From Cytophagales bacterium (lineage in GTDB: Bacteria > Bacteroidota > Bacteroidia > Cytophagales > Thermoflexibacteraceae): 64,000 nucleotides of DNA. The position numbers and the translations under genes were made by a program. The stretch is taken from positions 62,001 through 126,000 of the forward strand of contig REAZ01000012.1 of NCBI GenBank assembly GCA_004294445.1, written 5' to 3'. The notes under the pieces are model-generated. The model searched no databases. It had not been told where the DNA came from and saw only the letters and a program-made list of their open reading frames with translations. Below, one piece after another: positions 16,735 to 23,345 of the stretch. The first letter of the stretch is position 1. Each line of letters begins with the position of its first letter.

Positions 16735-17433
16735 TTATTCAAAGATTTTATCGTGATTAATTATTTTTCCGTCCGCCATCTCGATAGTGCGGTCGCTTGC
16801 TTTGGCAAAATCATTGTCGTGGGTAACAGCAATAATAGACTGCCCAAAATCTTGCGATAGTTGTTTAAATATCTCGAATACTATTTGCGTATTTTTACTA
16901 TCCAAGTTTCCTGTTGGCTCATCTCCCATAATGATAGCGGGGTCGTTTATCAAGGCTCTGGCAATAGAAACGCGTTGTTGCTGTCCACCACTTAATTTTG
17001 ATGCCTCTTTTAAGGCTTGGTCTTGTAGCCCCAACATTTCTAATTTTTGATAGGCTCTTTCTTCTACTTCTTGGTAAGAATATTTAGCAAGTTTGAGGGC
17101 AGGTATCATCACATTTTTCAGACACGTAAATTCGGGAAGTAAATAATGAAATTGGAACACAAAACCGATACTTTCATTCCTGAGTGTTGCCAATTTGTCG
17201 GTACTTTTTCCTGTAGCTTTTTCATTTCCGATGTAAAGTTCGCCTTCGTAGTCTGTATCCATTGTGCTTAGGCAATAGAGCATAGTGGATTTTCCGCAGC
17301 CGCTTTTTCCGACTATGGTCAGAAATTCGCCTTTGGCTACTTCAAAACTGATGTCGTCCAAGACTTTGAATTTTTGAGGTTGAAGAAAATATTTTCCTAA
17401 ACCTTTGGTTTGCAATATTATATCTCTGTTCAT
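16735..17433 (-). CDS. ABC transporter ATPase, MacB/LolD type
   Basis: 232 residues with a complete nucleotide-binding domain. Walker A is GKSGCGKST, the Q-loop region is FVFQFHYLLPEF, the ABC signature is LSGGQQQRVS, Walker B is AIIMGDEPTGNLDS, and the switch His is in AVTHD. The LolD/MacB/FtsE subfamily powers mechanotransmission ABC systems, not classic transport. It starts 11 bases after the permease stop and is the last gene of a DUF2147-TolC-adaptor-permease-ATPase operon. ATP hydrolysis here probably drives the MacAB-like exporter or a lipoprotein/peptide export system. Confidence 0.95.
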   Translation of the reverse strand: MNRDIILQTKGLGKYFLQPQKFKVLDDISFEVAKGEFLTIVGKSGCGKSTMLYCLSTMDTDYEGELYIGNEKATGKSTDKLATLRNESIGFVFQFHYLLPEFTCLKNVMIPALKLAKYSYQEVEERAYQKLEMLGLQDQALKEASKLSGGQQQRVSIARALINDPAIIMGDEPTGNLDSKNTQIVFEIFKQLSQDFGQSIIAVTHDNDFAKASDRTIEMADGKIINHDKIFE

Positions 17434-17444
17434 ATTGTTTAATT

Positions 17445-18674
17445 TTATTTTCTGAATATTTCAACAGGGTCAATTTTTGATGCGTTGCGAGCAGGGAAAT
17501 AGCCTGCCCCTAATGATACAAATAAGCCAAAAACTGCCCCTGTTGCATATACTTTTGGGTCGTGAAAAATAGGAAAATAACCAATAGGCGGACCGATATA
17601 AACAGTTTGCATAATGCTTACCAAAATAAAACCAAAAGTCAAGCCCAATAATGTACCAATAAAACCCATAATAAAGGCTTCTGATACAAATATTTTGATA
17701 ATATCTTTACCCTTAAAACCATTGGCTTTGAGTATGGCAATGTCATTCATTTTTTGAGTAATCGTCATATTCAAAATATTATAAATACCAAAGGCAGCCA
17801 CCAACATAATAGAAAATGAAATGAGCGGTGTCATTGTGCCTAACATATTATCTTGTGCGAGTTGGTCAGCATTCGCTGTTTTCCAATCTTCTACATCATA
17901 GTTTGTTATCTCTTGTAGTTTGGTGGCATAAATTTCAGCCTCATCTGGCTTAGAAATACTGGCGTAAATGTCTGTTACATAATCGCTGCTTTGCAACACC
18001 AACTGCTGTGCTGTTGAGATATGTATGTAGGATTTGGATTCGTCCACTGCTTTGTTGCTCGTGCTAAAAATTCCTGTAATTCGCATTATTTTTCTAACGC
18101 CTTGTGCAGATGAAAGTGTAATATTGTCGCCAATACCTACATTTAGTTTTTCTGCCACACCGCTACCAATCACGATGGCGTTTAGGTCGGAAGTCAGGGT
18201 TTGCAGATTTCCTGCTAACATTGTGCTTTGAATGTTGAACATTGCGTCTGCTTCCAATATTTTTACGCCATTGCCCACACCCTTTAATTGTGATTTTCCA
18301 TTGATATAAAACATATCCACGTTTACTTGTGGTGCAGCATACCTGATGTAGGTTTCTGATTTTATATCTTCCAACAAACGAAATGGGTTTACAATATTAT
18401 TGGATAAAGTGGTGATTTTCTGATTTTGAATCACCACAATACTATTAGTGGACTTAAATAATGGTTGACTAATTTTATCTTTATTATAAACCCTGATATG
18501 TGGGGCAGATTTGAACATATTATTTTTTGAATATACACCAAAGCCTGACACGATGGAATTGGAAAATATATACAAGGCTATGCCTATCGTTACGCCCATT
18601 GATGCTACCAAAGTTTGCTTTTTTCTGGTGAGAATGTGCGTTAAGGCTATTTCATAATTTACGTTGAGTCTCAT
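17445..18674 (-). CDS. ABC transporter permease, MacB/FtsX family
   Basis: 409 residues from the ATG at 18674 (MRLNVNYEIALTHILTRKKQT), one base after the stop of the adaptor gene. A longer in-frame start at 18713 would overlap that gene. The topology is MacB-like: one N-terminal helix (LVASMGVTIGIALYIFSNSIV), a periplasmic MacB_PCD domain of about 230 residues, and three C-terminal helices of the FtsX domain ending in GYFPARNASKIDPVEIFRK, a typical family C-terminus. It pairs with the ATPase downstream and the adaptor upstream. Confidence 0.93.
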   Translation of the reverse strand: MRLNVNYEIALTHILTRKKQTLVASMGVTIGIALYIFSNSIVSGFGVYSKNNMFKSAPHIRVYNKDKISQPLFKSTNSIVVIQNQKITTLSNNIVNPFRLLEDIKSETYIRYAAPQVNVDMFYINGKSQLKGVGNGVKILEADAMFNIQSTMLAGNLQTLTSDLNAIVIGSGVAEKLNVGIGDNITLSSAQGVRKIMRITGIFSTSNKAVDESKSYIHISTAQQLVLQSSDYVTDIYASISKPDEAEIYATKLQEITNYDVEDWKTANADQLAQDNMLGTMTPLISFSIMLVAAFGIYNILNMTITQKMNDIAILKANGFKGKDIIKIFVSEAFIMGFIGTLLGLTFGFILVSIMQTVYIGPPIGYFPIFHDPKVYATGAVFGLFVSLGAGYFPARNASKIDPVEIFRK

Positions 18675-18675
18675 T

Positions 18676-19773
18676 TTATTTGATTTTATCGGTGATAATG
18701 GTGGTATTTTCATCTAAACCTGCTAATACTTGCACCCAATCAGTGCTTATAAATTTGGTTTCTATTTTAATAGGCTCTTTTTCACCTTTGATAGTTACCA
18801 AATTGCCATATTGCAAATAATTTCTTGGAATAAGCAAGGCTTTTTTAGTTGTGCCTGTGATGATATTTACTTGTAATTGCGTATTGAGAATGTTAAAATC
18901 AAGTGAATCTGTAAAGTGAATTTTGCAAAGAAAAGATTGCGTTTGCTCATTAAAAGCTGGCAGTATTTCGGCTACTTTGCCTTTGTAAGTTTTTTTCTTG
19001 TTAGTATTTAATTGAATAACTGCCTCCTGCCCAACTTTTACCTGCGAAATACTACTTTCATCAATGCTTACTTTGGCATAGAGAAAATCGGCATTACCAA
19101 TCGTGGCAATCACATCTCCTTTGCGAACAAAATCACCTTTTTCTTTGTATCGCTGATAGACTTTTCCCGTATAAACGGCTTTGATTTGATTAAATCCTAA
19201 TAGAACCGTATTGGCATTTTTTTGTGCATTGTTAATCACTAATTGCTGTTCTGCTTGCTGTTTAATCAAATTGTAGTTTTCTGAGGCTTTTGAATAGTCC
19301 GCTTTTGAAGTCTGAAATTTCAATGTTGCGGTTTCATAATCCACTTTTGAAATGCTGTTTGCTTCCCAAAGTTTTTTCAAACGTTGTGCTTGTGCTTCAT
19401 CAAAATTTAACTTTTGCTTGGCATTTTCCACTGCAATTTTTGCCTGTACCAACTGTGGTGCATTGGGTTGTAGGTTTTGTTGGGCGATATTATACAAGGC
19501 ATTGGCACTTTCTTTATTGATTTCATTTTGTTTGTTGTCAATTACTGCCAAAACTTGCCCTTGATTGACAATTTCATTTTCTTTGAAATTAAGTTCTATC
19601 AAATAACCGTCAGATTGTGCCACTAATTGATAGATTTGGTTTGCCTCCAAATTTCCTGACGCAAAAACCGTTTCGGTTACATCTTTGCGAATGGGTTTGG
19701 TTTCTTGCACTTTTTTCCCACAAGCCGTTAGCAAACCAATGATAATGATGGATAAGATTTTTATATTTTTCAT
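18676..19773 (-). CDS. MacA/HlyD-type efflux adaptor, lipoprotein
   Basis: A 365-residue lipoprotein (LLTAC, Cys18). It shows a lipoyl half (QSDGYLIELNFKENEIVNQGQVLAVID), a long helical hairpin (about residues 85-195), the second lipoyl half (NQIKAVYTGKVYQRYKEKGDFVRKGDVI) and beta-barrel domains. It connects the MacB-like permease to the TolC-like channel encoded just upstream. It sits 4 bases after the TolC gene and one base before the permease gene, so translation is tightly coupled. Confidence 0.93.
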   Translation of the reverse strand: MKNIKILSIIIIGLLTACGKKVQETKPIRKDVTETVFASGNLEANQIYQLVAQSDGYLIELNFKENEIVNQGQVLAVIDNKQNEINKESANALYNIAQQNLQPNAPQLVQAKIAVENAKQKLNFDEAQAQRLKKLWEANSISKVDYETATLKFQTSKADYSKASENYNLIKQQAEQQLVINNAQKNANTVLLGFNQIKAVYTGKVYQRYKEKGDFVRKGDVIATIGNADFLYAKVSIDESSISQVKVGQEAVIQLNTNKKKTYKGKVAEILPAFNEQTQSFLCKIHFTDSLDFNILNTQLQVNIITGTTKKALLIPRNYLQYGNLVTIKGEKEPIKIETKFISTDWVQVLAGLDENTTIITDKIK

Positions 19774-19777
19774 TGTC

Positions 19778-21094
19778 TTACTTTATTTTGTTGTTGATAT
19801 TGATTTTCGTCAAAGCCATTTCTACCGTTTTTTCAGCGGAAATGAGGTTGTATTGACTGTTTACCATTTCATTAAAACTCCTGATGGTTTGGTCAAGGCT
19901 GATGATACCTGCTTCATAGTTTTGCAGATTTTTCTCGTAAGTATCTTTTCGCAATTCATAAATTGCTTTATTAGATGTTTTTTGAGAAATAGCCTTTTCA
20001 TAATCAACTATGAGTTGATTGCTTGTATGTTTGGACTGAATTTTAAATTGTTCAGTGTTATTTTTTGTTAATTGATGGTCATATTTGGCTTTGTAAGACT
20101 GTGAAATAGAGGAAGCAGAAGGAAGTGGCATACTCAAACGAAAGCCTACATAACTACTGGGTATCCAATTAACATTGCTATCAAATAATTTTGCTCTTTG
20201 ATTAAATTGCTGTTCTGTGCTTGAAAAGAAAACCGAGAAAGTAGGTAAAACAGAATACTTGGCTTTCTTGTAATTGCTGAAAGAGATTTGTTCATTCAAC
20301 AAAGCATTATTGAACAAAAGTTGATTGTTCTGCACTTCAATATTTGCGACACTTTCCTGCGTTTTTGGCTCAATACTAAATTGGACTTCTTCGGGAATAT
20401 CGGAAAGTAATTTTAGGGCAATGTATTGCTGCTGAATTAGAAACTCAATTTGATTTATCTGTTCTTCAACGGTTTTTTTATTTATGGTACTTTCATTCAA
20501 ATCTTGCTGATTGACCAATCCCGCTTGATACTTGTTTACAGTGGTTTGATACAATTTTTCTGCTCCTGCCAAATTTTCTTTGGTAGATTTTAATTGTTCC
20601 TGAAGTGTAGCAATACTAAAGAAAATAGTAGCGCTATTGTCATACAAATTTTTGAGTGCTATTTTGTTACTACTTTCTGTTAGTTGAATATTGAGTTTTG
20701 CTAACTTGAAATTTTCCCAACCTACTGGATTTATCAATTTTATATCAACATTTGTGTTGAAAGTGGTATTATACTGCACCCCAAATTTCACTTCTTTAAA
20801 AGTACCTGCTTGTCCGCCCAAAATTTCGGAAGGAATTAGATTAACAGCAAGTTGCGTATTGTTGGTGTAAGACAAACCCACATTGCCCGTTGGGTCAAGA
20901 ATACCCAATATAGAGGCTAATTTTGCTTTTTTGGCTTGCGAAAGTTGTATTTCACCACTTTTTAAAGTAAGGCTCTTAGTATTTGCCAAAGTCATAAACT
21001 CATCAAAAGAGGTTATGGTATTGGTTTGGGCTACTGCATTATTAAATAGTATGAGTTGAGTAGCCAAGAGAATCATAAATGTTTGGTTTCTCAT
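19778..21094 (-). CDS. TolC-family outer-membrane channel
   Basis: 438 residues with a cleavable signal peptide (MRNQTFMILLATQLILFNNAVAQ), not a lipobox. It has paired outer-membrane efflux repeats of long helices (about residues 150-250 and 350-430) and a central strand region (YVGFRLSMPLPSASSISQSYKAKYDHQ). It forms the channel of the MacAB-type pump. Its ATG overlaps the DUF2147 stop in ATGA, showing translational coupling with that gene. Confidence 0.92.
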   Translation of the reverse strand: MRNQTFMILLATQLILFNNAVAQTNTITSFDEFMTLANTKSLTLKSGEIQLSQAKKAKLASILGILDPTGNVGLSYTNNTQLAVNLIPSEILGGQAGTFKEVKFGVQYNTTFNTNVDIKLINPVGWENFKLAKLNIQLTESSNKIALKNLYDNSATIFFSIATLQEQLKSTKENLAGAEKLYQTTVNKYQAGLVNQQDLNESTINKKTVEEQINQIEFLIQQQYIALKLLSDIPEEVQFSIEPKTQESVANIEVQNNQLLFNNALLNEQISFSNYKKAKYSVLPTFSVFFSSTEQQFNQRAKLFDSNVNWIPSSYVGFRLSMPLPSASSISQSYKAKYDHQLTKNNTEQFKIQSKHTSNQLIVDYEKAISQKTSNKAIYELRKDTYEKNLQNYEAGIISLDQTIRSFNEMVNSQYNLISAEKTVEMALTKININNKIK

Positions 21095-21483
21095 TTGTTT
21101 AGTCGGTTAAAATTAAAGGTTTTTGAAAAGATAAATTTGCCTACGGAAAATCTAAATTTGTCTATACCAATCATCTTGATTTCAACTTTGTACTCATCGC
21201 CATTGTCGGGATTAATCAAAATGCCTTTGTAAGATTTTGAGGCATTACTCCAAACCAAGTCTTTCAAAATGGTTTTCCCATTTTCAGCAGGTTTTGGGGA
21301 ATTGATTCCTTTACCCACAAACTTTCCATTTTGGTCAGTAATTTCTATTTGCTTTTTGTGGTGTTCCGCATCTTTCCATTTACCAAGAATGGAATTTGAG
21401 GTTTGAGCATTTGCTGCGAAAGACACTACCAAGAGTATCACAACTGCTATTGTTTTTGTTACATTCCAATTATTCATTTGCAT
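21091..21483 (-). CDS. DUF2147 family exported protein
   Basis: A 130-residue protein with a signal peptide (TIAVVILLVVSFAANAQ) and the DUF2147 pattern: ILGKWKDAEHHKKQIEITDQNGKFVGKG near the N-terminus and LVWSNASKSYKGILINPDNGDEYKV in the middle. The family is small and periplasmic or outer-membrane associated, with unknown role. It is the first gene of the LytTR-linked efflux operon and overlaps the TolC gene by 4 bases. The start may be 21483 or the second ATG at 21477. Confidence 0.88.
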   Translation of the reverse strand: MQMNNWNVTKTIAVVILLVVSFAANAQTSNSILGKWKDAEHHKKQIEITDQNGKFVGKGINSPKPAENGKTILKDLVWSNASKSYKGILINPDNGDEYKVEIKMIGIDKFRFSVGKFIFSKTFNFNRLNK

Positions 21484-21517: not shown

Positions 21518-21548
21518 CAAAGATAAAGACATAAAAAAGCCTACACAA
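21518..21548 (-). promoter_or_regulatory. Promoter of the DUF2147-TolC-MacAB operon
   Basis: On the minus strand, TTG (21546-21548) is followed after 20 bases by TATCTTTG (21518-21525), an exact TAnnTTTG. The -33 lies inside the loop of the terminator at 21533-21561, about 13 bases downstream of the LytTR-type direct repeat. Confidence 0.68.
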
Positions 21549-21561
21549 TGCGTATGCAGGC
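21533..21561 (-). terminator. Hairpin terminator of LytTR two-component genes
   Basis: On the minus strand GCCTGCA pairs with TGTAGGC (7 bp, one G-U) and is followed directly by TTTTTT. It lies 41 bases after the regulator's stop and separates the two-component pair from the efflux operon. Confidence 0.65.
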
Positions 21562-21591
21562 GAAATGGACAGAATAGAAATTGAAATGGAC
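21562..21591 (-). promoter_or_regulatory. LytTR-type operator: GTCCATTTC-N12-GTCCATTTC
   Basis: Two exact 9-bp direct repeats (21583-21591 and 21562-21570, minus-strand reading) are spaced 21 bp start to start. That is the known geometry of LytTR response-regulator sites (two 9-bp repeats, 12-13 bp apart, just before -35). The response regulator gene ends 10 bases upstream and the target promoter is about 13 bases downstream. Confidence 0.75.
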
Positions 21592-21601
21592 TTAAACAGA
21601 T

Positions 21602-22360
21602 TTAAGTATTAGCAAGCCATTGTATAAACTCCGTAGTTTTGAGTTTGCCAATGATGATTTGTTCTTTGAAGGGGATAGTTAGGTTAGCCAACATCTTACG
21701 ATTAAAATATTGGGAGGCATCTTTTACCGCTTTTCTATTGATGAGAAATTGCCTATTGACTCTAAAAAAATCAGGGAAAGTTTTTTCCAAACTTTCCAAT
21801 TTTTGATTAACCAAATATTTCTTTTGCTCAAAAGTAAAAGCAAAAACATTCTCATTTTCAATATAAAAAAGGGCTATGTCATTGCCACTAATTGGGATAA
21901 TCTTATCACCTTGATGAACAATGATTGAGGCAGTTTTACCTAATAGTGTATTTCTTAATGAAGCATAAATGTTGGAAAGGTCAGTGCTTGGTTTTTCAAA
22001 TTTTTCTTTCAGACTTTTAAATTTCATTAAGGCTTTTTCAATAGTAACTTTGCTAAAAGGCTTCAACACATAATCAATACCTGCTGTTTTGAAGGCATCA
22101 AGCGTATATTGTTGGTAGGCAGTACAAAAAATAATAGGCGTAGTATTTTGATGTTTTTGGAAAATATCAGAACTCAATCCATCACCCAACTCAATATCTG
22201 AAAAAATTAAATCCAATTCGGGTGTATTTTGGAAAAACAAAAGACCTTCTTCAACAGAATAGATAGTCGTTACGATTTCAATATCCGCATCAATTGCTAC
22301 CAATGTTTTTGCCAAGTCTTTCGCTGTTAATTTTTCGTCCTCAATAATTACTACTCTCAT
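21602..22360 (-). CDS. LytTR-family response regulator
   Basis: 252 residues. The N-terminal receiver domain has acidic pair Glu7-Asp8, phosphoacceptor Asp55 (LIFSDIELGDG) and the conserved Lys in YVLKPF. The C-terminal LytTR DNA-binding domain (about residues 145-250) contains NRQFLINRKAVKD and GKLKTTEFIQWL. Its start overlaps the kinase stop by 4 bases (ATGA), so the two are cotranscribed. The target is very probably the adjoining efflux operon, given the 9-N12-9 direct repeat immediately downstream of the gene. Confidence 0.95.
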   Translation of the reverse strand: MRVVIIEDEKLTAKDLAKTLVAIDADIEIVTTIYSVEEGLLFFQNTPELDLIFSDIELGDGLSSDIFQKHQNTTPIIFCTAYQQYTLDAFKTAGIDYVLKPFSKVTIEKALMKFKSLKEKFEKPSTDLSNIYASLRNTLLGKTASIIVHQGDKIIPISGNDIALFYIENENVFAFTFEQKKYLVNQKLESLEKTFPDFFRVNRQFLINRKAVKDASQYFNRKMLANLTIPFKEQIIIGKLKTTEFIQWLANT

Positions 22361-23331
22361 TTTTTATCCAATAATTTTAGATTTATAGTAAAATTTATTT
22401 CTGTATCTTCGATAAGCAATCCATTTTCGGTTAATAAACTGTATCGGGCAATTAAATTCTTCAGACCTATGCCAGATTTGACCACAATTTGTTTCGGTGA
22501 TTTAGCATTACTTACTGTTACCACCGAATTTTTGGCAATTATGGAAATCATCAATGGTTTTTTTTCAGTGAAAGTATTGTGTTTGATAGCATTCTCTACT
22601 ACTGTTTGCAAAGAAAGTACAGGAATTAATTTTTGATGGGCTACTTGGTCAATACTACTTGTCCACTGCAAGGCTTCCCCAAAACGAACCTTTTGCAGGT
22701 TTAAAAAATCAAGCGTAAATTGCCATTCTCTTTCAAACAAAACCAAATCATTTTGATTGGCGTGAACAGAATACCTCAAAAACTTGGAAAGATGAATAAC
22801 GTATTCTTCTGCTTTTTCGGCGTTTTCAGTAACAAGCGATTTTAGGGTACTCAAAGCATTGAAAAGAAAATGGGGTTGAAGTTGTTGTAATAATACCTGT
22901 TTTTGAGCCTCTAAATTAACCAATTTCAAATTTTGGACTTCAAATTCTGCCATATCTTTACGCTTTCTTAGCAATTCAGAATTGATAATTACAAGAATAA
23001 TAGTGTTGATGGCAATGGTAGAAGCTACCGAATACAATAAAAAATCTGACGGATTTGGCTGGTCGGGCGACTTTGGAATGAAATATAAAATCGTAGATTG
23101 AGAAATAAATGTTGCTAAATAACTGATTGTGTATCTATTGATTGATGTTAGTTTAGTGCCAATCAGTACGATATTTAACCACCAAAAAAATGCTATCAGC
23201 AATGAAAGAGATAAATAGGCTATGATAAGTGGGATTATCTCGATTGATTTCGACAGAAATACTGGTGCTACTCCGTAAGCAGCTATGATGGGAGATGTAA
23301 ATAAGGCTATTTTGGTTAATCTATTTTTCAT
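22357..23331 (-). CDS. LytS/YehU-type sensor histidine kinase
   Basis: 324 residues from the ATG at 23331 (MKNRLTKIALF). Four hydrophobic helices occupy about residues 5-130. The His_kinase (PF06580) domain follows, with phosphoacceptor His in QLQPHFLFNALSTLKSLV, the N-box VVENAIKHNTF and the G-box GIGLKNLIARYSLLTENG. It has no separate periplasmic sensor domain, so it probably senses a signal in or at the membrane, as similar four-helix kinases are thought to do. It pairs with the LytTR regulator downstream (4-base overlap). Confidence 0.94.
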   Translation of the reverse strand: MKNRLTKIALFTSPIIAAYGVAPVFLSKSIEIIPLIIAYLSLSLLIAFFWWLNIVLIGTKLTSINRYTISYLATFISQSTILYFIPKSPDQPNPSDFLLYSVASTIAINTIILVIINSELLRKRKDMAEFEVQNLKLVNLEAQKQVLLQQLQPHFLFNALSTLKSLVTENAEKAEEYVIHLSKFLRYSVHANQNDLVLFEREWQFTLDFLNLQKVRFGEALQWTSSIDQVAHQKLIPVLSLQTVVENAIKHNTFTEKKPLMISIIAKNSVVTVSNAKSPKQIVVKSGIGLKNLIARYSLLTENGLLIEDTEINFTINLKLLDKK

Positions 23332-23337
23332 GATAGG

Positions 23338-23345
23338 CAAAGATA
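23338..23345 (-). promoter_or_regulatory. Candidate -7 element TATCTTTG before kinase gene
   Basis: Exact TAnnTTTG match on the minus strand ending 7 bases before the kinase ATG. If used, transcription would begin at or within a base or two of the start codon, giving a nearly leaderless mRNA. No -33 TTTG was seen at normal spacing. Confidence 0.4.

Follow-up and report, generated by a model that had tools for sequence, protein, structure and literature searches.

A conserved direct repeat as a predicted LytTR operator ahead of an efflux operon in a Cytophagales bacterium

Genes and features of the locus

The locus lies on the minus strand of a 64,000-nucleotide stretch of Cytophagales DNA, the whole of which we call the window, and begins with a gene for a membrane histidine kinase (22357-23331) that overlaps the gene for a 252-aa response regulator (21602-22360). 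The regulator combines a receiver domain (PF00072) with a LytTR domain (PF04397, E = 1.1e-14); its matches to solved structures were limited to the receiver domain, and DNA-contact residues therefore could not be transferred to it. The kinase matched His_kinase (PF06580, E = 1.8e-21) as its only family at E ≤ 0.001, which makes it a LytS-type sensor in the loose sense. In the strict sense, such a sensor carries 5TM-5TMR_LYT (PF07694) and GAF input domains (PMC5552118), neither of which was matched here, so that the "LytS-like sensor" of an earlier note on this DNA holds for the kinase domain and fails for the input domain. For the kinase start, ATG 23331 was preferred over the listed TTG 23340. 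The TTG falls within a -7 element, TATCTTTG (23345-23338, minus strand), and the ATG lies about 2 nt past the predicted transcription start, from which the transcript would be nearly leaderless (23329-23345, minus strand).

Beyond the regulator, also on the minus strand, the putative target operon opens with a gene for a DUF2147 protein (21091-21483) and continues with genes for a TolC-type outer-membrane efflux protein (19778-21094; PF02321), an HlyD-type periplasmic adaptor (18676-19773; PF13437, PF16576), an FtsX/MacB_PCD permease (17445-18713; PF02687, PF12704) and an ABC ATPase (16735-17433; PF00005), which together provide all parts of a tripartite MacB-like ABC exporter. A MacAB-TolC pump with single-chain MacB was considered and rejected, as permease and ATPase are separate genes; the label "MacAB-type pump" thus needs correcting as regards a fused MacB.

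Ten bases beyond the TAA stop codon of the regulator (21604-21602), and ahead of the DUF2147-TolC-HlyD-FtsX-ABC operon, the minus strand carries the exact direct repeat GTCCATTTC-N12-GTCCATTTC (21591-21562) with a period of 21 bp. Its distal half-site (21583-21591) would occupy about -78 to -70 relative to the predicted transcription start and is conserved among relatives, and its proximal half-site (21562-21570), 21 bp from the distal one, would occupy about -57 to -49 and is the better conserved of the two. The pump promoter has the -7 element TATCTTTG (21518-21525, minus strand). Because a start-site map of Flavobacterium places the -7 box at -12 to -5 (PMC9723704), transcription is expected to start at about 21513, which is 30 nt ahead of the DUF2147 start codon at 21483. 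A -33-like ATTG (21546-21549, minus strand), poorly conserved among relatives, begins at the 13th base past the repeat. All the distances that the earlier note had given were confirmed: a 9-mer present twice with 12 bases between and 21 bp from start to start (21591-21583 and 21570-21562), the end of the regulator gene 10 bases upstream, and the beginning of the promoter about 13 bases downstream. A scan for sigma-70 -35/-10 promoters returned zero matches, as expected for Bacteroidota promoters.

The ATTG lies within a predicted intrinsic terminator of the kinase-regulator transcript (21533-21561, minus strand), composed of a hairpin at 21561-21539 (GCCTGCATACGCATTGTGTAGGC) and TTTTTT, with a folding energy of -12.7 kcal/mol (z -4.1). 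In the nearest relative (L039), a hairpin GCCTACAACCTGCTGTTGTAGGC followed by TTTTTT reaches -13.8 kcal/mol, and its 9-bp stem is retained through compensatory changes, with different letters on both sides; in L010 the equivalent place is taken by a hairpin that is shorter and also has a run of T. The proposal of a terminator hairpin across the -33 was thus upheld by both its position and the retained stem, and it is reasonable to expect that transcription of the two-component genes would not just carry on into the pump genes.

Conservation of the repeat beside orthologous regulators

Relatives of the regulator were drawn from two collections, and the sequence downstream of their stop codons was read. 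Pairs of GTCC(A/G)NTT recurred there in many Bacteroidota at exactly 21 bp, including GTCCAGTTC-N12-GTCCATTTC in L039 (regulator 83% identical), GTCCATTTG-N12-GTCCGGTTC in L010 (67%), GTCCACTTC-N12-GTCCATTTC in L011 (59%) and GTCCATTTT-N12-GTCCATTTG in L014 (58%). Within 320 bp downstream of the regulator stop, and allowing no more than one mismatch across the two halves together, a period-21 pair was present in 13 of 109 loci; the coding and upstream control stretches had none, and other periods gave 0-3. A weight matrix recovered 43 pairs at period 21, whereas other periods yielded 1-6 and reversed sequence yielded 6. The promoter register was similarly fixed: the end of TTTG in a -7 element of the form TAnnTTTG lay 44 nt past the end of the proximal half-site in 24 pairs and 43 nt in 7 (31 of 43 in total); of the remaining distances over 10-87 nt, none was seen in more than 4 pairs. 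In the alignment of these 31 sites, for which an invariant TTTG was the selection criterion, the columns near -33 carried no more than about 0.5 bit each and no fixed TTG.

The full module followed the identity of the regulator, being present in 16 of 17 loci at ≥50% (the window itself counted, and L155 and L017 coming from near-identical genomes), 8 of 22 at 43-50%, 10 of 24 at 38-43%, 1 of 23 at 36-38% and 1 of 34 lower (2 of 57 below 38% overall), with 0 of 120 in reversed controls; many loci at 38-50% had no module within the DNA examined per locus. As the matrix was trained on some of the counted loci, the independent evidence consists of the reversed controls and of ten held-out loci from unused genomes. 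Among the latter, four carried clear full modules (L172, L173, L175 and L178), two carried weak ones (L174 and L176) and four had none within the DNA examined, and the reversed controls scored under all four clear loci. A scan of 390 genomes found the full pattern in eight, and seven of these matches lay by the orthologous regulator or its TolC gene. The match in G344 (L166) had no LytTR gene within the locus DNA examined and was set aside. A near-perfect pair in G123 (L146:5342-5371), with TTTG at 43 nt, faces a stretch without a sizeable ORF on that strand.

Taken alone, the shuffle statistics for the repeat were only suggestive. A window scan at ≤3 mismatches gave 1 match versus 0.07 expected. 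Of mononucleotide shuffles of the 118-bp gap, 0.14% repeated a 9-mer exactly at period 21 and 2.4% did so at any period of 15-30, the latter rate lending something to the idea of a chance duplication, or of a part of the terminator region devoid of regulatory role. It is the conservation between species that we judged decisive: the repeat is kept in distant relatives with period and promoter register fixed, even before unrelated genes, which contradicts that idea and leaves it next to no probability. The earlier note had also proposed a genome search for further pairs, and this search, over 3.44 Mb (about 62% complete), gave 1 exact pair, 0 pairs at 1-2 mismatches and 13 more at 3; the looser pattern GTCCRNTT-N13-GTCCRNTT had no second pair in the same 3.44 Mb. 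Since no second pair was found, the site seems reserved for a single promoter in this organism, of whose genome more than one third may be missing.

Predicted regulation of the pump promoter

LytTR regulators recognise paired repeats, each 9-11 nt long and 11-13 nt apart, and share no common half-site sequence (PMC4847170). The 9-N12-9 repeat fits this size and spacing, lies next to a gene for a LytTR regulator, and stands upstream of a promoter at a fixed phase. The description "textbook LytTR operator" was therefore apt for the geometry and misplaced for the half-site, whose GTCC(A/G)NTTC form is specific to the clade of the regulator. Because repeat, period and -7 distance are kept beside orthologous regulators and ahead of orthologous pumps, these data support the earlier proposal of the repeat as an operator for the adjacent regulator that serves the pump promoter, and we consider it very probable, from sequence comparison, that the regulator binding there activates the DUF2147-TolC-HlyD-FtsX-ABC operon.

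The binder might instead be another LytTR regulator of the genome, in which a first look gave 12 LytTR candidates. This reading also draws on a distant paralogue (L150) whose gene is immediately followed by GTCCGCTTT pairs. The site, however, tracks the orthologues of the adjacent regulator, as the 16 of 17 loci at ≥50% identity indicate, and most relatives have it directly after the orthologue or ahead of its kinase gene, so that a different main binder appears highly improbable. The L150 protein is 30% identical to the regulator, and its GTCCGCTTT-N12-GTCCGCTTT (L150:4155-4184) begins four bases past its stop codon.

With the adjacent regulator as the binder, the proposed sequence of events would begin with phosphorylation of the regulator by the kinase, after which two regulator molecules would bind, one per half-site, on the same helical face at a separation of 21 bp, or two turns. 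The bound regulator would then activate a promoter with a good -7 and a weak -33, and the efflux operon would be transcribed from about 21513. The terminator between the operator and the -7 would end the kinase-regulator transcript, and the pump would thereby rely on its own promoter. The direction of control is read from anatomy: the phase is fixed and the -33 is weak, and this weakly conserved -33 suggests activator-dependent promoters. The presence of a hairpin in the -33 space fits a reading of the -33 as dispensable.

The sign of regulation cannot be read from sequence, and the window promoter keeps ATTG at -33, which would allow the regulator to bind the repeat as a repressor of the pump promoter, with the signal relieving repression. 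We regard such repression as unlikely, because the operator lies upstream of the -33 in fixed helical phase to the -7 and does not overlap the promoter core, because the near absence of conservation in the -33 region over the 31 sites fits an activator, and because the literature describes those LytTR response regulators that have been characterised as activators of transcription (PMC5552118, PMC4847170).

Activation by the adjacent regulator would have its nearest counterparts in three known LytTR systems. In Staphylococcus aureus, the LytTR domain of AgrA binds direct repeats upstream of a promoter, as is predicted for the operator here; half-site, sigma factor and targets differ. Escherichia coli YpdB, of the YpdA/YpdB system, binds GGCATTTCAT direct repeats at yhjX (PMC4847170). 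That system shares with the present one a LytTR response regulator, two direct repeats within the size and spacer range of the family, a transporter target, and the letters CATTTC in both half-sites, YpdB's and GTCCATTTC; unlike it, the present system has the half-site GTCCATTTC, a sensor lacking the LytS input domain, a Bacteroidota promoter, and as its target an export operon that comes immediately after the regulator gene. The LytTR Regulatory System (LRS) consists of a LytTR regulator and a membrane inhibitor protein with no histidine kinase, and in its operators, including those of Bacteroides, the repeats stand about 10-11 bp ahead of the promoter; in Bacteroides thetaiotaomicron the operator is TCCGGTATTCA-N11-ACCGGAAATCA, 11 bp before TGTA-19 bp-TATCTTTG (PMC6193735). 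Direct repeats 11-13 nt apart just upstream of a promoter are common to both, and the B. thetaiotaomicron register differs from the one found here by one or two bases at most. Membership of the present locus in the LRS was nevertheless rejected, as its regulator carries a receiver domain and is encoded by a gene that overlaps the kinase gene, the two proteins forming a two-component pair.

Targets in relatives and wider occurrence

The genes downstream of the module varied among relatives. It stood ahead of DUF2147-TolC-HlyD-FtsX-ABC in L039, L148, L155, L042 and L043, and in L193 as far as the contig reaches; ahead of TolC-HlyD-FtsX-ABC lacking DUF2147 in L144, L149, L185, L187 and L182; ahead of a TolC-HlyD-AcrB-type RND operon, assigned by Pfam, in L152, and ahead of a gene set matching the L152 operon in sizes in L163; and, in L147, L156, L157, L191 and L192, ahead of genes for a TonB-dependent receptor and a protein of about 265-270 aa. 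The receptor has a carboxypeptidase-regulatory domain (L147:8595-11800; L191:6997-10149; L192:7386-10534), and its 269-270 aa partner in L147, L191 and L192 has no clear Pfam family.

In L147, L148, L182, L183 and L185 a pair sits at the promoter of the kinase gene, and for this reason autoregulation is likely in these five loci. The kinase promoter of the window (TATCTTTG, 23345-23338) has no recognisable pair, the best candidate having 4 mismatches and lying off register; that of L039 carries a single half-site GTCCACTTC, 44 nt from TTTG as counted on the sequence.

Among distant LytTR loci, repeats near TAnnTTTG peaked at period 21 (19 promoters versus 0-9 at other periods), and 21-bp direct repeats of other half-sites upstream of TAnnTTTG were present in L085 (TACGGTTCAG), L099 (TTTACGGTT) and L112 (TTACAATTC). 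Several of the 19 promoters look like chance, and a shared exact 44-nt register, looked for in these loci, gave no sharp register; a phylum-wide operator rule is for these reasons only a proposal. We give an even chance to a broader view in which Bacteroidota possess a wide class of LytTR-activated promoters where the activator replaces the -33, with half-sites varying by clade and the 21-bp period and the distance of about 44 nt to TAnnTTTG fixed, and in which, within the clade of the regulator, the module has moved among pumps of the ABC and RND types and TonB receptors. If true, cognate operators would become predictable for hundreds of uncharacterised two-component systems.

LytTR direct-repeat operators are already known as a kind, and the literature we searched recorded little on them in Bacteroidota; new here are a half-site specific to the clade, the measured 44-nt rule and the variety of targets, which include both exporters and receptors. 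Through the operator, a sensor-regulator pair not yet characterised would be tied to an efflux operon, and the rule of GTCC(A/G)NTT at period 21, 44 nt from the TTTG end, may serve target prediction in other Bacteroidota. Chitinophaga and Mucilaginibacter, with Chitinophaga sp. YR573 and Mucilaginibacter sp. OK283 as examples, carry the module at orthologous pump operons, which makes the predicted regulon testable in culturable relatives. In Chitinophaga sp. YR573 (L042), two modules (L042:4857 and L042:6859) flank the kinase-regulator pair, one directed toward the ABC pump operon and the other toward a gene that precedes a TolC-adaptor-RND set.
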